Shown here one piece after another: positions 5,942 to 34,715 of a stretch of DNA of 34,850 bases. The translations under genes were made by a program, and so were the position numbers. Location: IMG/VR virus record IMGVR_UViG_3300030107_000353, positions 1 through 34,850 of that record, one strand, 5' to 3'. The first letter of the stretch is position 1; each line of letters starts with the position of its first letter. This DNA comes from a virus. Under the pieces are notes generated by a model that ran no database searches, was not told the DNA's origin, and saw nothing but the letters and a program-made list of their open reading frames with translations.

Positions 5942-6683
5942 TAATGTTGAAACTTCAGCACCAATCGCTACAGAAACACCTTCTGAAGCAACTAAACCTG
6001 AATATGTGCAGGATAAGTTTTGGGATGAAAATACTAAACAAGTTAACATAGAAAACTTAGCGTCAAGTTATAACTCACTTGAATCTAAATTAGGATCTAG
6101 AACAGAAGATTTAACTAAACAAATTAGAACAGATCTTGAAGCTGAAAAACTTAAAAATGTTCCAGAAGCTTATAAATTAAATGTTCCAGAAATGGAAAAC
6201 ACTAAATTAACTATATCTGAAGATATGCCTATAGTTAAATGGTGGGGAGAAACTGCAAAGTCTGCAGGATTATCTCAAGATCAATATGATAATGGTGTAA
6301 AAGCATTTATTGATAATGCAGTTGCTAATTTACCTAATCCAGAAATTGAAAAACAAAAACTTGGAGATGCAGGTAAAGAAAGAATAGAAGCAGCAAGTAT
6401 GTGGTCTAAAAAACATTTAAGTCCAGAAGGTTATTCTACAATAGCTGATTTAGCTAATACTGCTAATGGTGTAAAAGTTATTGAAGAATTAATGAAACTT
6501 AGTAAAGACACAAGTATGCCTACTTCACCAACACAAGTAGATGTTGCAGCTACCCAAGACGATTTAAAATCAATGTTAAATGATCCTCGTTATTGGGATA
6601 GTTCTAGACGTGATCCTGCGTATGTAAGACGAGTAACGGAGTTATATGAGAAAGCATACAAAGGACAAAGCAACCAAAGCTAA
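5931..6683 (+). CDS. Capsid assembly scaffolding protein, 250 aa
   Basis: This acidic, helix-rich protein lies directly upstream of the major capsid gene, the position of T7 gp9-type scaffolds. It has a disordered Thr/Ala/Glu-rich N-terminus, a PEYVQDKFWDENTKQVNIEN segment, a long helical middle, and a C-terminus with DDLKSMLNDPRYWDSSRRDP followed by a short basic helix, as scaffolds commonly have for binding capsid protein. It should be absent from mature virions. The start overlaps the preceding gene by 11 bases and follows a GGAG ribosome binding site. The end overlaps the next gene by 38 bases. Confidence 0.85.
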   Translation: MADDNVETSAPIATETPSEATKPEYVQDKFWDENTKQVNIENLASSYNSLESKLGSRTEDLTKQIRTDLEAEKLKNVPEAYKLNVPEMENTKLTISEDMPIVKWWGETAKSAGLSQDQYDNGVKAFIDNAVANLPNPEIEKQKLGDAGKERIEAASMWSKKHLSPEGYSTIADLANTANGVKVIEELMKLSKDTSMPTSPTQVDVAATQDDLKSMLNDPRYWDSSRRDPAYVRRVTELYEKAYKGQSNQS

Positions 6684-6918
6684 ATTTAAATATAAGAAAT
6701 TAAAAAAACCTATAAAGTGGCTTGATTGTGTAAGTCAAACAGGTTGGATTAGCGAAAAAGATATTGACTCTGCTAAACCAGCTACTTGCATAACAGGCGA
6801 CTTTTGGGTTTATAAAGATACAGATGATTTTATTACTCTTTTTGGTACTTATTCTTACGATGAAAAAGGTGAAATAGAATTTGGTGAAGTTATAACTATC
6901 CCTAAACAATGGATTTAA
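6646..6918 (+). CDS. Conserved small protein, 90 aa, between scaffold and capsid
   Basis: The N-terminal 20 residues are very basic (KHTKDKATKAKFKYKKLKKP). The rest has a compact beta-rich pattern: WLDCVSQTGWISEKDI, an AxPATCITGDFW segment and a terminal VITIPKQWI. Similar short proteins ending in an IPK-type motif are scattered through marine phages; the function is unknown. It overlaps the scaffold reading frame by 38 bases, which makes the exact start uncertain; a shorter form is possible. It could be expressed with the scaffold by coupling. Confidence 0.7.
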   Translation: MRKHTKDKATKAKFKYKKLKKPIKWLDCVSQTGWISEKDIDSAKPATCITGDFWVYKDTDDFITLFGTYSYDEKGEIEFGEVITIPKQWI

Positions 6919-27170: not shown

Positions 27171-27743
27171 ATGAATAAAGTTATTAAATTAGATAAAGAT
27201 ATTAAAAATAGATTCTCGGAAGAACAGTTAACAAGAGCAACAACAATTATAAATAAATTAAAACCTATTTATAAAAAGATTATTGTAGATCATCATTGTA
27301 AATTAGAAAACATAGATAAAGTTTTAAATATGACTAAAGACTTTACTGAACTTAATTTAAAAGCTTATGAAAATGTTTATTCTAATAACATACTTAAATA
27401 TTTTTTTGATAATAAAGATAAATGGTTATTATTAAATGAAATAGTAAAAGCTTCAGCAGCAGGTGAACTTGTTTATAAAGAAAGTTTATCTAAGAAATTA
27501 GGTGTTTCAGCTAAAACATTAAATAAATATATAGATGAAGCTTTAGAAGGTGATTTATTTATTGTAATGAATCCTCATTCTATGAAGAAAAAAGATAATA
27601 GAATAGTTAATATTAGACCGTCTGTTGAATTAACGGTAGCTTATATAGATTATAATGTATCTAAAATAATTGATAATATAAATTTTTTAGAAAATTATAG
27701 TAAATACCATGAACAATGTAAGTTACTAAAAAGTGTTAGTTAA
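27171..27743 (+). CDS. Helix-turn-helix DNA-binding protein, probable regulator, 190 aa
   Basis: Residues 103-131 (KESLSKKLGVSAKTLNKYID within) form a winged-helix-type HTH: a helix, a GVSxKTLNKY recognition helix, then EGDLFIVMNP as wing strands. The N-terminal 90 residues are helical and may dimerise. It has its own control region with operator-like repeats, while the preceding genes end in a gap, and it stands next to the strand switch. All this suits a phage transcription regulator that sets the balance between the rightward and leftward arms. The 3' end overlaps the leftward 27736 gene by 8 bases, tail to tail. Confidence 0.7.
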   Translation: MNKVIKLDKDIKNRFSEEQLTRATTIINKLKPIYKKIIVDHHCKLENIDKVLNMTKDFTELNLKAYENVYSNNILKYFFDNKDKWLLLNEIVKASAAGELVYKESLSKKLGVSAKTLNKYIDEALEGDLFIVMNPHSMKKKDNRIVNIRPSVELTVAYIDYNVSKIIDNINFLENYSKYHEQCKLLKSVS

Positions 27744-28008
27744 GTTTTTTTCCGTCTTCTGTATATTTTTCAGCTTGAATTGTAGCTAAAGCTGAAGATA
27801 ATAAATCAATTACAAATTGTTTCTTTTTATACCATCCTGCAATATTCATTGTAGTTGAAATTAATGCGACTAAAGATGCATCAACATTTCCACGTTTAAG
27901 TAAATCAATCGTTATAAAATCATTAAGTTCTTCTACAGAATTTGCACATTCAGTAATTTTAAGATTTCTTTTTTTAAACTCTTTTTTTAAATCTAAAATA
28001 GATTTCAT
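27736..28008 (-). CDS. Hypothetical protein, 90 aa
   Basis: A leftward helical protein (MKSILDLKKEFKKRNLKITE start) with an acidic ANSVEELNDFITIDLL segment and a hydrophobic VALISTTMNIAGWYKKKQFV helix that is amphipathic rather than a TM. No family recognised. It is isolated: convergent with the HTH gene on the left and divergent from the 28050 gene on the right, with a TGTGCGT motif on its strand at 28042-28048, 34 bases ahead of its start. That suggests separate control, perhaps an early or moron-type gene. Confidence 0.6.
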   Translation of the reverse strand: MKSILDLKKEFKKRNLKITECANSVEELNDFITIDLLKRGNVDASLVALISTTMNIAGWYKKKQFVIDLLSSALATIQAEKYTEDGKKLN

Positions 28009-28049: not shown

Positions 28050-28289
28050 ATGTCTGACTATCATTACCGTAAATTATATGAAATATCTGAAGAAATTGAA
28101 TATTTAAGAAAACAAATCAATTTAATTTGCAAAAGAATGGGTATTGAACATCAAATCAAAACTAATAAAAATTATTTAGGATATGATGTTGATGTATTTG
28201 AAGGAATATTTGGTGATGATGGTTTAAAATTAGAAGACAACTCTAAAGAACACACCAATATCATAAATTACTTTGATAAAAAAAAGTAA
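28050..28289 (+). CDS. Hypothetical protein, 79 aa
   Basis: MSDYHYRKLYEISEEIEYLR begins a helical, charged N-terminal half (coiled coil to about residue 35), followed by a GYDVDVFEGIFGDDG acidic segment and a Lys-rich end. No family recognised. It is the only rightward gene in the strand-switch zone, has a host-like promoter directly ahead and no room for a normal ribosome binding site if the promoter is right. Its stop lies in the left arm of the 12-base inverted repeat that opens the noncoding island to its right. Confidence 0.6.
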   Translation: MSDYHYRKLYEISEEIEYLRKQINLICKRMGIEHQIKTNKNYLGYDVDVFEGIFGDDGLKLEDNSKEHTNIINYFDKKK

Positions 28290-28366
28290 ACAAGTGGTGT
28301 GAACCGTAAGTTTAGCTTTACCTATTACCTATACACACTTTGTTATCATGGTAACACTTGTTTACT
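28285..28366. repeat. 12-base inverted repeat flanking a 14-base near-palindrome
   Basis: AGTAAACAAGTG (28285-28296) is the exact reverse complement of CACTTGTTTACT (28355-28366). Directly inside the right arm lies GTTATCATGGTAAC (28342-28355), a near-perfect palindrome with one wobble pair. The arms are 58 bases apart, so they could be a protein-binding pair or the base of a long stem. Confidence 0.7.
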
Positions 28367-28789
28367 AATGGTCTTCTTTTCCGAATCAGCAGGACTTTAG
28401 CTTTAAATTGTTAATTACCAATTTAAATACAGGGTCTAGCTTACCTATTTGTCGTCACAAATTCTGTAAAAAAAGTAAGTAATAGGCATTTTTTATAAAG
28501 TGCTTTTATACCAGTTTATGCAGACAAACGTACACATAACTTAGTACACTCCCAGGAATAATATTAATTGGTTTTCCTGATTTCATTATCCAAACCTAAT
28601 TGCTTACTTTGGGGTTTTATTCCACAGGAAACCCCAACCTGTTGTTTAGACAGATTCCGATGTTTCAATCGATCGAATCTGTACTGGAATTTTTTAGCTA
28701 GGCGAAATGCTTTTTCAAGCCAACCGCCTAGCCGAAAGGAGCCAATCTAATGATTAGCTATTTGCAGGATGAAATAACCTACAAATTCT
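28290..28789. other. Hairpin-rich noncoding island (~500 bases) between convergent genes
   Basis: No convincing gene lies here. Hairpins in order: TTTAAATTG/CAATTTAAA (28402-28427, 9 pairs); TTTGT/ACAAA (28448-28461); TTGGGGTTT/AAACCCCAA (28609-28637, 9 pairs, 11-base loop); ACAGATTC-C-GAT/ATCGAATCTGT (28650-28682, 11 pairs with one bulge); GCTAGGCG/CGCCTAGC (28697-28732, 8 pairs, enclosing a GCTT/AAGC hairpin). TTTAGCTTTACC and CTAGCTTACC segments recur near 28310 and 28435. None has a T-run placed as in an intrinsic terminator. The stretch may encode a structured RNA or be an origin or attachment region; no tRNA is recognisable. Confidence 0.6.
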
Positions 28790-29173
28790 TTAAAACTGAT
28801 TATTAAAATCACCATCTTTATTACTTGATGGTGCAGTTCCTCCAGATTCTTTAGGTGAAACCATTTTGACTACACCTGAATATCTAGGAACAACTACTTC
28901 TGTTACATATCTTTGATTGTCATTAGCATCTTTATAAGATCTAGTTTCAATCTCGCCTTCAACATATAACATAGTACCTTTTTTAGCATACTTGCCCATC
29001 GTATCAGCGATACGAGGATCAAATACTACAACTTTATGCCAAGTAGTTTTTTCTTCTTCTTTAAACTTCTTGTTAGTTGCTAAAGATAGATTAGCCATGC
29101 TATCACCTTTTTTGGTTTGTTTAACCTCTGGATCAGCACCTAATCTACCCACTAGGATTACTTTGTTTATCAT
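28790..29173 (-). CDS. ssb: Single-stranded DNA-binding protein, 127 aa
   Basis: A standard SSB: OB-fold N-terminus MINKVILVGRLGADPEVKQT, the WHKVVVFDPRIADTMGKYAK and GTMLYVEGEIETRSYKD segments, a disordered Ser/Pro/Gly linker and a short acidic tip ending in DGDFNNQF that docks partner enzymes. It coats ssDNA during replication and recombination. The start overlaps the end of the Sak-like gene by 29 bases, so the two recombination partners are co-expressed. It is the most distal gene of the leftward arm; no terminator is seen after it, only the hairpin-rich island. Confidence 0.93.
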   Translation of the reverse strand: MINKVILVGRLGADPEVKQTKKGDSMANLSLATNKKFKEEEKTTWHKVVVFDPRIADTMGKYAKKGTMLYVEGEIETRSYKDANDNQRYVTEVVVPRYSGVVKMVSPKESGGTAPSSNKDGDFNNQF

Positions 29174-30021: not shown

Positions 30022-30622
30022 TAAATTCCTTTTCGTTAAAATTATCAAAACTAATATAATCAGGTGGAGCTTTCTTTGTTGTTACAAAGTGCCAGAATAA
30101 TATTTCTGCGTTTTCTAATTTGTCTTGAAACTCTTTATCTTCAGTTATTTCCATAATTTCATGTTTTAAGTTTCCAAAAAAAACCGATAAATAAATTCTC
30201 TTACTTTTTACACACATTAAATAATGTTGTAATTGAGCTTTATATTTATCAGTTACCTTTTTAGGATTACTAAATGCATTAGTATGTTTACACTCTAATA
30301 TTGAAACACCTAAATCTGTCTTTGATTTTAAATCTTCTTTATCAGGCATTATTAAGCCATCAACATGAGCATACATAAATTTATATTTTTCATGAAAAAA
30401 TGTTTCTTGTTTTCCATGTACTTCTAATCCAGTTTGTTTTTCAAACCATTGAATGTTAAATGATTCAGTATGTATTCCCATTTGTACTGGTAACACATCA
30501 CTTAAATCAGGATATTCTGACTTACCAAGCTTTTCTTCCCAAAGCTGATACCAATCACCTTCATACAATCTTGTTGCATCAGATCCACCAATGCCTTGTT
30601 TTCTATCGAACTCTTTATTCAT
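29984..30622 (-). CDS. YqaJ-type (lambda exonuclease-like) recombinase exonuclease, 212 aa
   Basis: A PD-(D/E)XK nuclease of the YqaJ/lambda Exo class. Visible motifs: GIGGSDA (11-16), the conserved acid E54 in MGIHTESF, D88 in AHVDGL, E110-x-K112 in ILECKHTN and the YKAQLQHYL helix with Q130/Q132. It digests 5' strands of double-stranded ends and pairs with the annealing protein at 29145 as a Red-type recombination couple. The length is normal for the family. The leftward gene order is exonuclease, winged helix, annealing protein, SSB. The first ATG fits; a TATGAA context precedes it, with GGAGGAACGATATG as ribosome binding site. Confidence 0.88.
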   Translation of the reverse strand: MNKEFDRKQGIGGSDATRLYEGDWYQLWEEKLGKSEYPDLSDVLPVQMGIHTESFNIQWFEKQTGLEVHGKQETFFHEKYKFMYAHVDGLIMPDKEDLKSKTDLGVSILECKHTNAFSNPKKVTDKYKAQLQHYLMCVKSKRIYLSVFFGNLKHEIMEITEDKEFQDKLENAEILFWHFVTTKKAPPDYISFDNFNEKEFNEGRTVIPVVAR

Positions 30623-31488: not shown

Positions 31489-31678
31489 TAATTCCCCCAA
31501 TATTTACTCTTGATATTGTAACTATTGTTGATTTAATGAGAACATTAAATGAACGCTTAAAAGCTTCAAAAGTTATCGGTAGTAATTTAAGGTAATTATT
31601 TCCTTGATTCTGTATTACATTTCCGATAATTAATGGACATTGGTAACGATAATTAATTGTTTCCAAGCAAATCAACAT
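31481..31678 (-). CDS. Doubtful 65-aa ORF in the control region
   Basis: This frame (MLICLETINYRYQCPLIIGN start) fills the space between the leftward TGTGCGT copy and the XRE gene, which it overlaps by 8 bases. Against it: no family, no ribosome binding site, and it contains a pair of direct repeats that look like operator DNA. More likely it is the leader of the early operon. I keep it only as a possibility. Confidence 0.25.
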   Translation of the reverse strand: MLICLETINYRYQCPLIIGNVIQNQGNNYLKLLPITFEAFKRSFNVLIKSTIVTISRVNIGGINA

Positions 31679-31861
31679 ATACTCACCATACGCACAAAGA
31701 ATACTATATATAGAGTAAATGTTTCCTGTATGTTCTTACGGAATCTTTTACCTATTGTGCGTACTATCCACTCTCGCTTAAGTACACAACAATAGGGAGA
31801 ATTTATTGCAATATTTTAAGACCTGCGAGTTCTCAAAAACAGTCTTTCGTAAGCCGTAGAT
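31501..31861. promoter_or_regulatory. Control region between the two XRE genes
   Basis: About 360 bases. It holds two direct repeats of CGATAATTAAT at 31624-31634 and 31647-31657 (23-base period, about two helical turns); TGTGCGT on the - strand at 31697-31691 with TATATATAG about 8 bases upstream; and TGTGCGT on the + strand at 31756-31762, so the two point away from each other. The - copy drives towards the early genes. The + copy points into the 3' side of the 31862 gene, where no rightward gene exists; an antisense or small RNA is possible. AAGAC/GTCTT with an inner GAG/CTC pair forms a stem at about 31820-31850. Confidence 0.55.
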
Positions 31862-32131
31862 CTAACTTAATGGCTGCGTTAGCTTACTATCAAGGTCTGA
31901 AACGGATGACTCCGATGCCTTAAATTCTGTTATATTCCAACCATTTAATTCACATAATTGAAGTAATTGATGAGCAAATATTCGGTTTTGCCCATTCTCA
32001 AATTTTTGTATTTGTTGGAACGATACATTTAATTGATCTGCTAAATTTGATTGTGTGAGTTTAGATTTCTTTCTAAGTACTCTAAGATGCTCTCCGATTT
32101 TATTGTTATATTCATTTTTGGCTTGTTTCAT
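31862..32131 (-). CDS. XRE/Cro-CI-type repressor-like protein, 89 aa
   Basis: A textbook HTH_3 domain: IGEHLRVLRKKSKLTQSNLA (12-31), the recognition helix in NVSFQQIQKFENGQNRI (35-51) and a closing HQLLQLCELNGWNI helix. Outside the fold there is only a short Ser/Asp-rich tail, so it lacks a CI-type cleavage domain and is more like Cro or an antitoxin-style regulator. It lies just right of the control region with paired direct repeats. It overlaps the DnaA-like gene upstream by 20 bases, so replication and regulation genes are co-translated. Confidence 0.88.
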   Translation of the reverse strand: MKQAKNEYNNKIGEHLRVLRKKSKLTQSNLADQLNVSFQQIQKFENGQNRIFAHQLLQLCELNGWNITEFKASESSVSDLDSKLTQPLS

Positions 32132-32582
32132 TAATTAATTCCTGTTTAAGCTTATTATAAATTGCATGATTATTCGGTATCTTCCAATTACCTTTCTTAT
32201 TAATTCTTAAACTTACATGATAAATTAAACTTGTATGATCTCTTTCTGTTAACTTTGATAATTGAGGATATGAAAATCCTGTTAACTCTCTAGACAAATT
32301 AATTGCTATAGATCTCGGTATCACTAAATATTGATTTCTAGTTTTACCAAATAATTCTTTTTGTGGTATTTTAAAATAATTACAAACTTTAAATTTTATT
32401 TTTTCAAATATATCAGGACTATTAATAGGTGATACATCAGGAACAAATTTAAAAGGTTTTTCATTTGATTTCATACCAGCAGTATAACCAGCTTGGTATA
32501 TTGCTTGTTCTCTATCAGTTAATAAATGATATACCGTGTTAACAGCTTTTATTAAAGGGTTATTGTTTATAGGAATTGTCAT
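32112..32582 (-). CDS. DnaA domain IV-like replication protein, 156 aa
   Basis: I start at ATG 32582, where the ATGA overlaps the preceding gene's stop. Residues 57-130 match the DNA-binding domain IV of DnaA: IFEKIKFKVCNYFKIPQKEL, RNQYLVIPRSIAINLSRELT, then FSYPQLSKLTERDHTSLIYH. The RDHTS element (114-118) is the DnaA-box contact loop, RDHTT in bacteria. The AAA+ ATPase domain is absent; the 55 residues in front are unlike DnaA. Proteins of this build could bind DnaA boxes in phage or host DNA to recruit or block the host initiator. It is followed by an XRE gene and preceded by unknown early genes. Confidence 0.85.
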   Translation of the reverse strand: MTIPINNNPLIKAVNTVYHLLTDREQAIYQAGYTAGMKSNEKPFKFVPDVSPINSPDIFEKIKFKVCNYFKIPQKELFGKTRNQYLVIPRSIAINLSRELTGFSYPQLSKLTERDHTSLIYHVSLRINKKGNWKIPNNHAIYNKLKQELINETSQK

Positions 32583-32896
32583 TGTATATTTCCTTTTCTT
32601 CTTGAAGCTTCCAATGTTCTCCAAACATCTATTCTTGTTACAGATAAAGCTCTTTTATTTCTTAAAATAGATACCATTTCATCTAATTTAGAAAATTCAT
32701 CTTGATAAGATTTATATTGTTCAGAAGCATAAAAATGTTGTTCTGCTTTTGAAACAGGCATATTTGAATGTTCAACAATAAATTTACCTTTAATATGTTT
32801 TAAATCGTGAACGTGTTTTGTTAATCTAGCAGTACCTTTTGAATAAGCTTCATCAGTTTCTGCTAAATAATGTAAATCTTTTTCAATATCCATCAT
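32579..32896 (-). CDS. Hypothetical protein, 105 aa, helical
   Basis: Mostly helix: MMDIEKDLHYLAETDEAYSK, then a middle with SKAEQHFYASEQYKSYQDEF and a C-terminal RIDVWRTLEASRRKGNIQ. The pattern, with a tyrosine-rich middle and a terminal IDVWR(T/S)xxxxRRxG, occurs in other phage early regions in my recollection, but no function is attached. The start may be either of two adjacent ATGs (32896 or 32893). It overlaps the DnaA-like gene at ATGA and the next upstream gene by 14 bases, so it is part of the same translationally linked run. Confidence 0.65.
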   Translation of the reverse strand: MMDIEKDLHYLAETDEAYSKGTARLTKHVHDLKHIKGKFIVEHSNMPVSKAEQHFYASEQYKSYQDEFSKLDEMVSILRNKRALSVTRIDVWRTLEASRRKGNIQ

Positions 32897-33181: not shown

Positions 33182-33787
33182 TTAATGTGTTTTTTTGTTT
33201 GGTTTTTGTCCTTGGACAATCATATTTTCTTTACCAAATGTTTTGCTTAACATTTCACCAATTTGTCCAACCATTTGTTTTTCTGACATTTGATTTGGAT
33301 CTCTTTTACTTGGATTGTAATAAGGATGTTTATTTATTAAAATAAATTTAGTTAAATAATATAATCTTGAAGATTCTATTTTTCCATTCATTACTATTTC
33401 ATCCCAATGATCTTTAGGTGCTTTAATAGATTTAGAAGTTGCCACATACCATTTATTATTTTTAAATAAATAAACAAATTCTATAAATACATCGCCACTT
33501 AATTCACTTAAAAAAGAATACTCGTTATTATAAATTTTTGCTGGATCTTCTTTTCTGTTCCAATCTCTTGAATAAAATGAACAATCTTTTAAAGTTTCTC
33601 CCAAAAAAGAACAATCTCCATATTCAAATAATTTATATGCTTTGTCATAATTATTATAATAACTTAATAATGTATGTCCTACACCATCAGGATAACCATC
33701 TGAATGAACATATATTGCTTTAATATTTTTACTTTTATGTTTTGAATTTGCAGGTAATTCAATTGCTATAAAACTTCTAGTTGACAT
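33182..33787 (-). CDS. Conserved phage/plasmid protein with MSTRSxIxIE..DGYP motif, 201 aa
   Basis: The N-terminal pattern MSTRSFIAIELP, IKAIYVHSDGYPDGVGHTLL, and KLFEYGDCSFLGETL is shared by a widespread family of phage and plasmid proteins (MxTRSxIxxx...YxHxDGYPxxxGxxL) of unknown biochemical role. The rest has FIEFVYLFKNNKWYVATSKS and a Lys-rich tail. No catalytic residues can be assigned. It overlaps the DUF932 gene by 11 bases; the two often occur together in phage and plasmid genomes, as far as I recall. Early expression is likely from position. Confidence 0.7.
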   Translation of the reverse strand: MSTRSFIAIELPANSKHKSKNIKAIYVHSDGYPDGVGHTLLSYYNNYDKAYKLFEYGDCSFLGETLKDCSFYSRDWNRKEDPAKIYNNEYSFLSELSGDVFIEFVYLFKNNKWYVATSKSIKAPKDHWDEIVMNGKIESSRLYYLTKFILINKHPYYNPSKRDPNQMSEKQMVGQIGEMLSKTFGKENMIVQGQKPNKKTH

Positions 33788-34715
33788 ATAATTCCTCCCA
33801 ATAATTAGATCGCATCATTTCTGCGACTTGTTTCTCTCGTTTTCTTGATACATTGTGTATAGCTCCTCTAGTGATTGGGTGGGTTGCCCAGTCAGTTGCT
33901 GTTTGGTAAACCGCAAAAATTGTAGAACCGTATTTACTACAATACTGATCCCATAAGTGATCCAAATGCTTAAGGACAAGCATACTGTTGTCATCAATAT
34001 CAAGCTTTGTTTTACGGTTTGCCAAAGTTTTCCTAAATAAGTTTGTGACTGCATTGTTAGTTACCTTTCTTTGCATCATTTTAAATAGATCTTCACCTAA
34101 TTCCTTATGAGCTGTAACACCCATTTTAAAATCATTCATAGTGAAAGATATATCTCGTTTATCGTTATGTTTATTATAGACAACAAATGTCCAATCAGGT
34201 CTTACCATTCCATTTAAACAAACTACATAAACAGAAGACCACATGATTTGTTGTCCCCATCTTCCATCCATAGATGAATAGATTCTTAATTGTGGTATGA
34301 TTTTTTCTTCAGTACCTTTGATATGAAATCCACCATCCTTATAGTTATTTATATCAATAGCATCATCCCAAAAATTAATTGTACGAATGAACTTTTTACC
34401 ACCTTCAAGAACTTGGTCTTTAGGTGTAATAGTAAATCTTTCGTAATCAGGTACGGCTTCAACAATTACTTCATTAACCTTTTCTGCTAATTCAGAATAT
34501 GGTCTAATTATGTAATCATCTGTATGAATACCTAGTAATTTACCTGTATCTTTTCTTACTAAAGCATATCTATTTACATATTCATCTTCAGGTATTTCTT
34601 CTCCAGTTTCGGCATCAACTGGATAATATTTTAACTGTCTTTTAACAGTTTCAAAATACGCACTTTTATCTATTGTGAGTTTATTATTTGATTGCATTTG
34701 TATAGCTGTTTGCAT
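33777..34715 (-). CDS. DUF932 (phage/plasmid-like) protein, 312 aa
   Basis: The pattern is that of DUF932, a family found in phages, plasmids and mobile elements: NRYALVRKDTGKLLGIHTDD, a central LRIYSSMDGRWGQQIMWSSV segment, VVCLNGMVRPDWTFVVYNKH, and a helical C-terminus ending in SRKREKQVAEMMRSNYWEEL. The function is unknown; it is usually an early, replication-associated gene. A GTGCGT on the same strand lies at 34663-34668 just inside the gene, and a GC-rich hairpin lies 31 to 52 bases upstream of the ATG. The start at 34715 is preceded by GAAAGAGGTGTT, a good ribosome binding site. Confidence 0.85.
   Translation of the reverse strand: MQTAIQMQSNNKLTIDKSAYFETVKRQLKYYPVDAETGEEIPEDEYVNRYALVRKDTGKLLGIHTDDYIIRPYSELAEKVNEVIVEAVPDYERFTITPKDQVLEGGKKFIRTINFWDDAIDINNYKDGGFHIKGTEEKIIPQLRIYSSMDGRWGQQIMWSSVYVVCLNGMVRPDWTFVVYNKHNDKRDISFTMNDFKMGVTAHKELGEDLFKMMQRKVTNNAVTNLFRKTLANRKTKLDIDDNSMLVLKHLDHLWDQYCSKYGSTIFAVYQTATDWATHPITRGAIHNVSRKREKQVAEMMRSNYWEELYVN

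Follow-up and report, generated by a model that had tools for sequence, protein, structure and literature searches.

A probable modular 3' untranslated region of structured RNA elements behind the ssb gene of a marine phage

Structured elements lie between or behind phage genes, and the T7 RNase III processing sites and the lambda sib retroregulator are examples. The 500-base island described here is likewise structured and near phage genes, and it is known from sequence alone; unlike those elements, its modules vary between close relatives. With intrinsic (Rho-independent) terminators it shares a stem plus U tract that closes the island, but the apical regions are here often about 40-90 nt long and carry conserved motifs, and extra modules lie upstream. 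In organisation, as far as the available portions of the literature go, the nearest analogy is with BIME/REP sequences, which likewise combine hairpin units into mosaics within non-coding gaps. Roles of REPs in ending transcription and in stabilising mRNA have been hypothesised (PMC3733652, PMC2817692). The present case differs in being from a phage and in consisting of RNA domains with conserved loops, mostly at one locus and not as high-copy repeats: where REP/BIME sequences have many copies per genome, the model of module M3 finds one solid copy per locus, most of the loci being genome fragments. No description of this locus was found in the literature, which was covered in part.

The DNA analysed, here called the window, is a linear virus record of IMG/VR (IMGVR_UViG_3300030107_000353) of 34,850 nucleotides. 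On its rightward arm are virion genes for a terminase, a portal-like protein (head-tail adaptor) and an endolysin-like protein; the leftward arm is given over to recombination and replication. By protein, the nearest cultured relatives are Pelagibacter phages: Hodr EXVC031P, at 57% for the portal-like protein, and HTVC035P and Lederberg, at 55-58% for the single-strand-annealing protein. This makes a SAR11-type host likely. A protein with a DnaA C-terminal domain is encoded at 32112-32624 (minus strand), although the window has fewer perfect DnaA boxes than expected by chance. The protein of the 90-aa gene beyond the island has no match in PHROG, nothing above the cut-off in Pfam and nothing significant among PDB folds; on the Pfam and PDB results, a role for this neighbour as an RNA-binding protein was rejected. 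The features of the island and its surroundings are given below, with related loci denoted by L numbers.

28790-29173, minus strand: ssb, with the island at its 3' side (phrog_44, E 2e-38; the anchor in relatives)
28290-28789, minus strand: the island, a probable modular structured 3' UTR and terminator region of ssb (folding, relatives)
28760-28786, minus strand: M1, a small hairpin directly behind the ssb stop codon (fold; similar in L151)
28740-28759, minus strand: M2 hairpin A, AGCTAATC/GATTGGCT (stem rewritten in many relatives, adjoining CTCCT kept)
28734-28741, minus strand: CUCCUUUC, an anti-Shine-Dalgarno-like, mostly single-stranded linker overlapping the end of hairpin A (single occurrence in the window)
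28696-28733, minus strand: M2 hairpin B with internal loop GTTG/ATTT, the GCTAGGCG/CGCCTAGC helix of the initial annotation (relatives; G-U 57 against A-C 15)
28650-28682, minus strand: hairpin ACAGATTC/GAATCTGT (fold; shorter in L151)
28611-28635, minus strand: hairpin GGGG/CCCC (fold)
28486-28595, minus strand: M5, a CAGGAA..TTCCTG hairpin plus a GGGAGTGTAC..GTAT.AAAGCACT domain (other order in L152/L157; other gene gap in L112/L113)
28468-28610, minus strand: terminator-like stem enclosing M5 (arms 28599-28610 and 28472-28483, one mismatch; U7 at 28468-28474)
28386-28462, minus strand: M3, a covarying RNA domain (covariation; model R1, 86 bits, E 3.4e-17, an in-sample score, and scores of training sequences are not independent evidence)
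28278-28366, minus strand: final intrinsic-terminator-like element (stem 28285-28296/28355-28366; U8 at 28278-28285)
28050-28289, plus strand: 79-aa gene, its stop codon abutting the U tract (only in some relatives)
27736-28008, minus strand: conserved 90-aa orphan gene, predicted all-helical, beyond the island (neighbour in most relatives)

The initial annotation placed the island where the rightward and leftward arms meet, and this needs correcting: the leftward arm continues past the island on the minus strand, with the 90-aa gene beyond, and the rightward 79-aa gene between them is present only in some relatives. That the island carries no convincing gene is borne out. Its only ORF of at least 50 aa, a 60-aa TTG ORF (28568-28750, plus strand), is partly absent from the near-identical relative L151. 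Compared with 100 dinucleotide shuffles, both strands fold better (z -3.84 and -4.00). Sliding 150-nt windows pick out only the part next to ssb and not the island as a whole, and therefore the case for the rest of the island rests on comparative evidence. The helices reported at the outset are present (GCTAGGCG/CGCCTAGC around GCTT/AAGC), as are the TTTAGCTTTA and TTACCTATT repeats, and there is a perfect 12-bp pair at 28285-28296/28355-28366.

Ninety-four distinct islands were taken from loci encoding relatives of SSB, of the adjacent single-strand-annealing protein and of the 79-aa protein. The gap between ssb and the 90-aa gene occupies the same place in most of these relatives, and island length ranges from about 130 to over 500 bases. 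Among 52 non-redundant islands the mean folding z is -4.33 in the ssb sense and -3.80 on the other strand, a small sense-strand advantage (p 0.016); z falls below -2 in 50 and 47 of the 52, respectively.

Are any of the hairpins intrinsic terminators? The claim that none is an ordinary one does not stand, as two helices precede U tracts on the minus strand. The perfect 12-bp pair, with U8 next on that strand, qualifies by sequence as a predicted intrinsic terminator, and the helix at 28472-28483/28599-28610 is followed there by U7. Both are intrinsic-terminator-like with long apical regions, and both were missed by a simple scan because it was limited to loops of up to 8. A hairpin running into a U tract is present in 55 of the 94 islands in the ssb sense and in 8 antisense; in about 40% of islands the scan used gave no clear U-tailed hairpin, and therefore termination is not universal. 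In L109, L101 and L097 the island is reduced to a short hairpin and U8.

Pairwise comparison of islands reveals conserved pieces that recur in different order; M5, for example, comes after M2 in the window and before it in L152/L157. A simple motif scan gave 35 module arrangements, on motif definitions that are our own and incomplete, and found no M2 in the islands of many relatives. Whole modules often distinguish the islands of phages with 97-100% identical ssb 3' ends. In the pairs L102/L109, L097/L111 and L128/L129, the basal hairpin of the longer island is separated from its U tract by an extra 194, 173 and 205 bases, respectively. Between the window and L082 the flanks on either side are 93% identical, but about 320 bases of the island cannot be aligned except for a 46-base piece of M3. 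How might such turnover come about? Recombination at T tracts would explain it, and a dedicated mechanism is not needed.

In module M2 a hairpin, CUCCU(UUC) and a second hairpin follow each other, the stems being rewritten among relatives and the linker kept. Hairpin A reaches 7 bp in 75% of cases (3% when shuffled) and hairpin B reaches 10 bp in 80% (6% when shuffled). The sequence GCTCCTTTC is found in 18 islands, its reverse complement in none. M3 spans 77 bases in the window and consists of a 6-bp hairpin, a conserved AGGUAAGCUAGNACCUGUA, a freely rewritten stem and a conserved GCUAAAGUCCUGCU; a long-range pair varies between C-G, G-C and U-A. Over 32 sequences, 89.2% of M3 paired cells are filled by pairs (65.3% shuffled), and 10 of 12 pairs have changed on both sides. 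The covariation score is 0.571, compared with 0.148 for shuffled and at most 0.126 for slid versions, a comparison that somewhat favours the structure over the slid versions since it was read from the same 32 sequences. Compensatory changes, suggested early on as a check in relatives, thus exceed both the shuffled and slid controls, and M3, with its clear covariation, is a predicted structured RNA.

To which strand does the structure belong? Of the cells that are not Watson-Crick pairs, G-U outnumber A-C 36:5 in M3, 23:9 in M2 hairpin A, 57:15 in M2 hairpin B and 32:5 in the terminator stems, a total of 148 to 34; the M2 and terminator stems were picked by a rule without preference for either. 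G-U pairs are A-C mismatches in RNA of the opposite strand, and therefore the structure belongs to the ssb-sense RNA. The U-tract word TTTTTTTTA occurs in 35 islands and its reverse complement in 2.

The M3 model, built from the 32 sequences, matches loci of several gene contexts. M3 lies upstream of a homologue of the window's DUF932 gene (33777-34715) in L176, L183, L184 and L190, between two small genes in L181 and L192, and in L164 and L188 with no ssb nearby, the L164 copy being at a convergent junction. In L112, M5 sits in a gap that precedes an HTH gene. At the inspected loci, M3 and M5 both have the orientation of the preceding gene. Another module, M8, was not found in the window and occurs in islands of some relatives and in many contexts, including directly behind a promoter-like sequence in L204/L208. 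At these two loci a first promoter-like box precedes M8 and a second precedes a hairpin with a U run, both being short folded stretches, and the arrangement looks like two small RNA genes in tandem.

The window has further folded regions. A second mostly non-coding, hairpin-bearing gap (CCTATTGTTGTGTACT..AGTACGCACAATAGG) lies at 31501-31861 (minus strand), flanked by two leftward HTH genes; its folding z over the whole gap is only -1.80, and the M5-bearing gap of L112 is similarly placed. A strong fold is present inside a coding ORF at 6676-6825 on the plus strand (z -8.5 from 25 shuffles in the scan; -3.7 for 291 nt) and another near the left end at 76-300 (z about -4 to -5).

Rfam 15 at gathering thresholds gave no matches in the window or in 20 relatives; sub-threshold matches on the island were read as chance. 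M8 of L204 (1234-1313, minus strand) weakly matches positions 1-62, the full model, of GP20-b RNA (RF03003, Cis-reg), with which it has in common a CGUUAAAG-like loop and UAAAAAAGC; at 19.7 bits it is below the gathering score of 36.2, and M8 of L210 is not among the matches listed. M8 therefore resembles GP20-b weakly without belonging to that family, and a wider GP20-like family may exist. With the island and a module-bearing relative locus as queries, blastn against 50,697 phage records returned no match. Among the nearest cultured pelagiphages, the HTVC035P and Lederberg regions and the whole Hodr record gave no match to M3. The M3 pattern had two matches in 84,980 bacterial and archaeal species (one genome each); neither had the M3 hairpin, and both were taken as chance matches.

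The island is probably the 3' untranslated region of the leftward ssb transcript, ended by a terminator and built of interchangeable RNA modules. At the computational level, its conserved helices fit RNA of ssb sense, its end is a terminator-like hairpin and U8, and modules are gained, lost and reordered among close relatives. The structured noncoding RNA envisaged in the initial annotation is supported by the conserved position, the covarying helices and the G-U bias to one strand. Leftward transcription would pass through ssb into the island, and RNA polymerase would halt at the hairpin-U8 element before colliding with rightward transcription. The modules would then give the mRNA a compact, protective and regulatory 3' end, and their conserved internal loops and unpaired stretches could be bound by protein or RNA. 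Some relatives manage with a short island of one hairpin and U8, and termination is therefore probably the basic function. The conserved internal loops go beyond the needs of a plain terminator; inserted modules are probably added regulatory domains, and the modules probably act in cis on the transcript that carries them.

Could the island instead give rise to a stable small RNA acting in trans, either freed from the 3' UTR of ssb or transcribed from a promoter of its own, in which CUCCUUUC is unpaired and would bind Shine-Dalgarno sequences in phage or host mRNAs? The retention of GCTCCTTTC, always in one orientation while the flanking stems are rewritten, would suit such a putative RNA, as would a related module in L204/L208 directly behind a promoter-like TTGACT-17-TATATT, and the anti-Shine-Dalgarno-like linker may allow a trans-acting role. 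It is made rather doubtful by the absence of M2 from many islands and by an island start with no convincing promoter, where promoter-like matches are not above chance. A further, doubtful proposal is a phage RNA-cassette locus, with modules captured, lost and shuffled at a terminator U tract from a pool shared by marine phages, under fast selection such as an arms race with host defences that sense or degrade RNA.

The order of module, terminator and gene, in one orientation, recalls transcription-attenuation leaders, and aptamer-like modules plus a terminator might form an attenuator controlling the downstream 90-aa gene. M3 and M5 also occur upstream of other genes, and the M8 of relatives is weakly like a Cis-reg family. 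This cis-regulatory leader is unlikely, however, as the modules preceding the 90-aa gene may be exchanged or missing, and in the window the antisense 79-aa gene separates it from the terminator.

A DNA-level element (an origin, a site of recombination or mobile hairpins of REP/BIME type that work as single-stranded DNA) would accord with a mosaic, hairpin-rich, fast-changing island and with M2 hairpin A, which on the plus strand is a GGAG-tagged palindrome. The cumulative GC skew, proposed as a check for an origin, does peak at the island, but skew tracks gene orientation. The G-U bias, U tracts, structure and module orientation are strand-specific and M3 has its single solid copy per locus, and so a DNA role is very improbable; the suggested origin, resolution or attachment locus finds no support. 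A DnaA-dependent origin was rejected, with one perfect DnaA box in the window, at 30206, against 6.7 expected by chance. A hidden small protein, for which the 60-aa TTG ORF on the plus strand was the candidate, was rejected and is scarcely credible, as the ORF is not kept in L151, the closest relative, and the modules that distinguish islands can have any length.

Annotation of phage genomes normally proceeds one gene at a time and passes over short gaps. The gap behind ssb, read as a probable modular 3' untranslated region, holds several predicted structured RNA modules new to Rfam, M3 among them with strong covariation. Almost identical phages differ by whole modules. If functional, the modules would point to a further level of RNA regulation in marine phages that are still uncultured, and these differences would offer a natural swap set for testing it.
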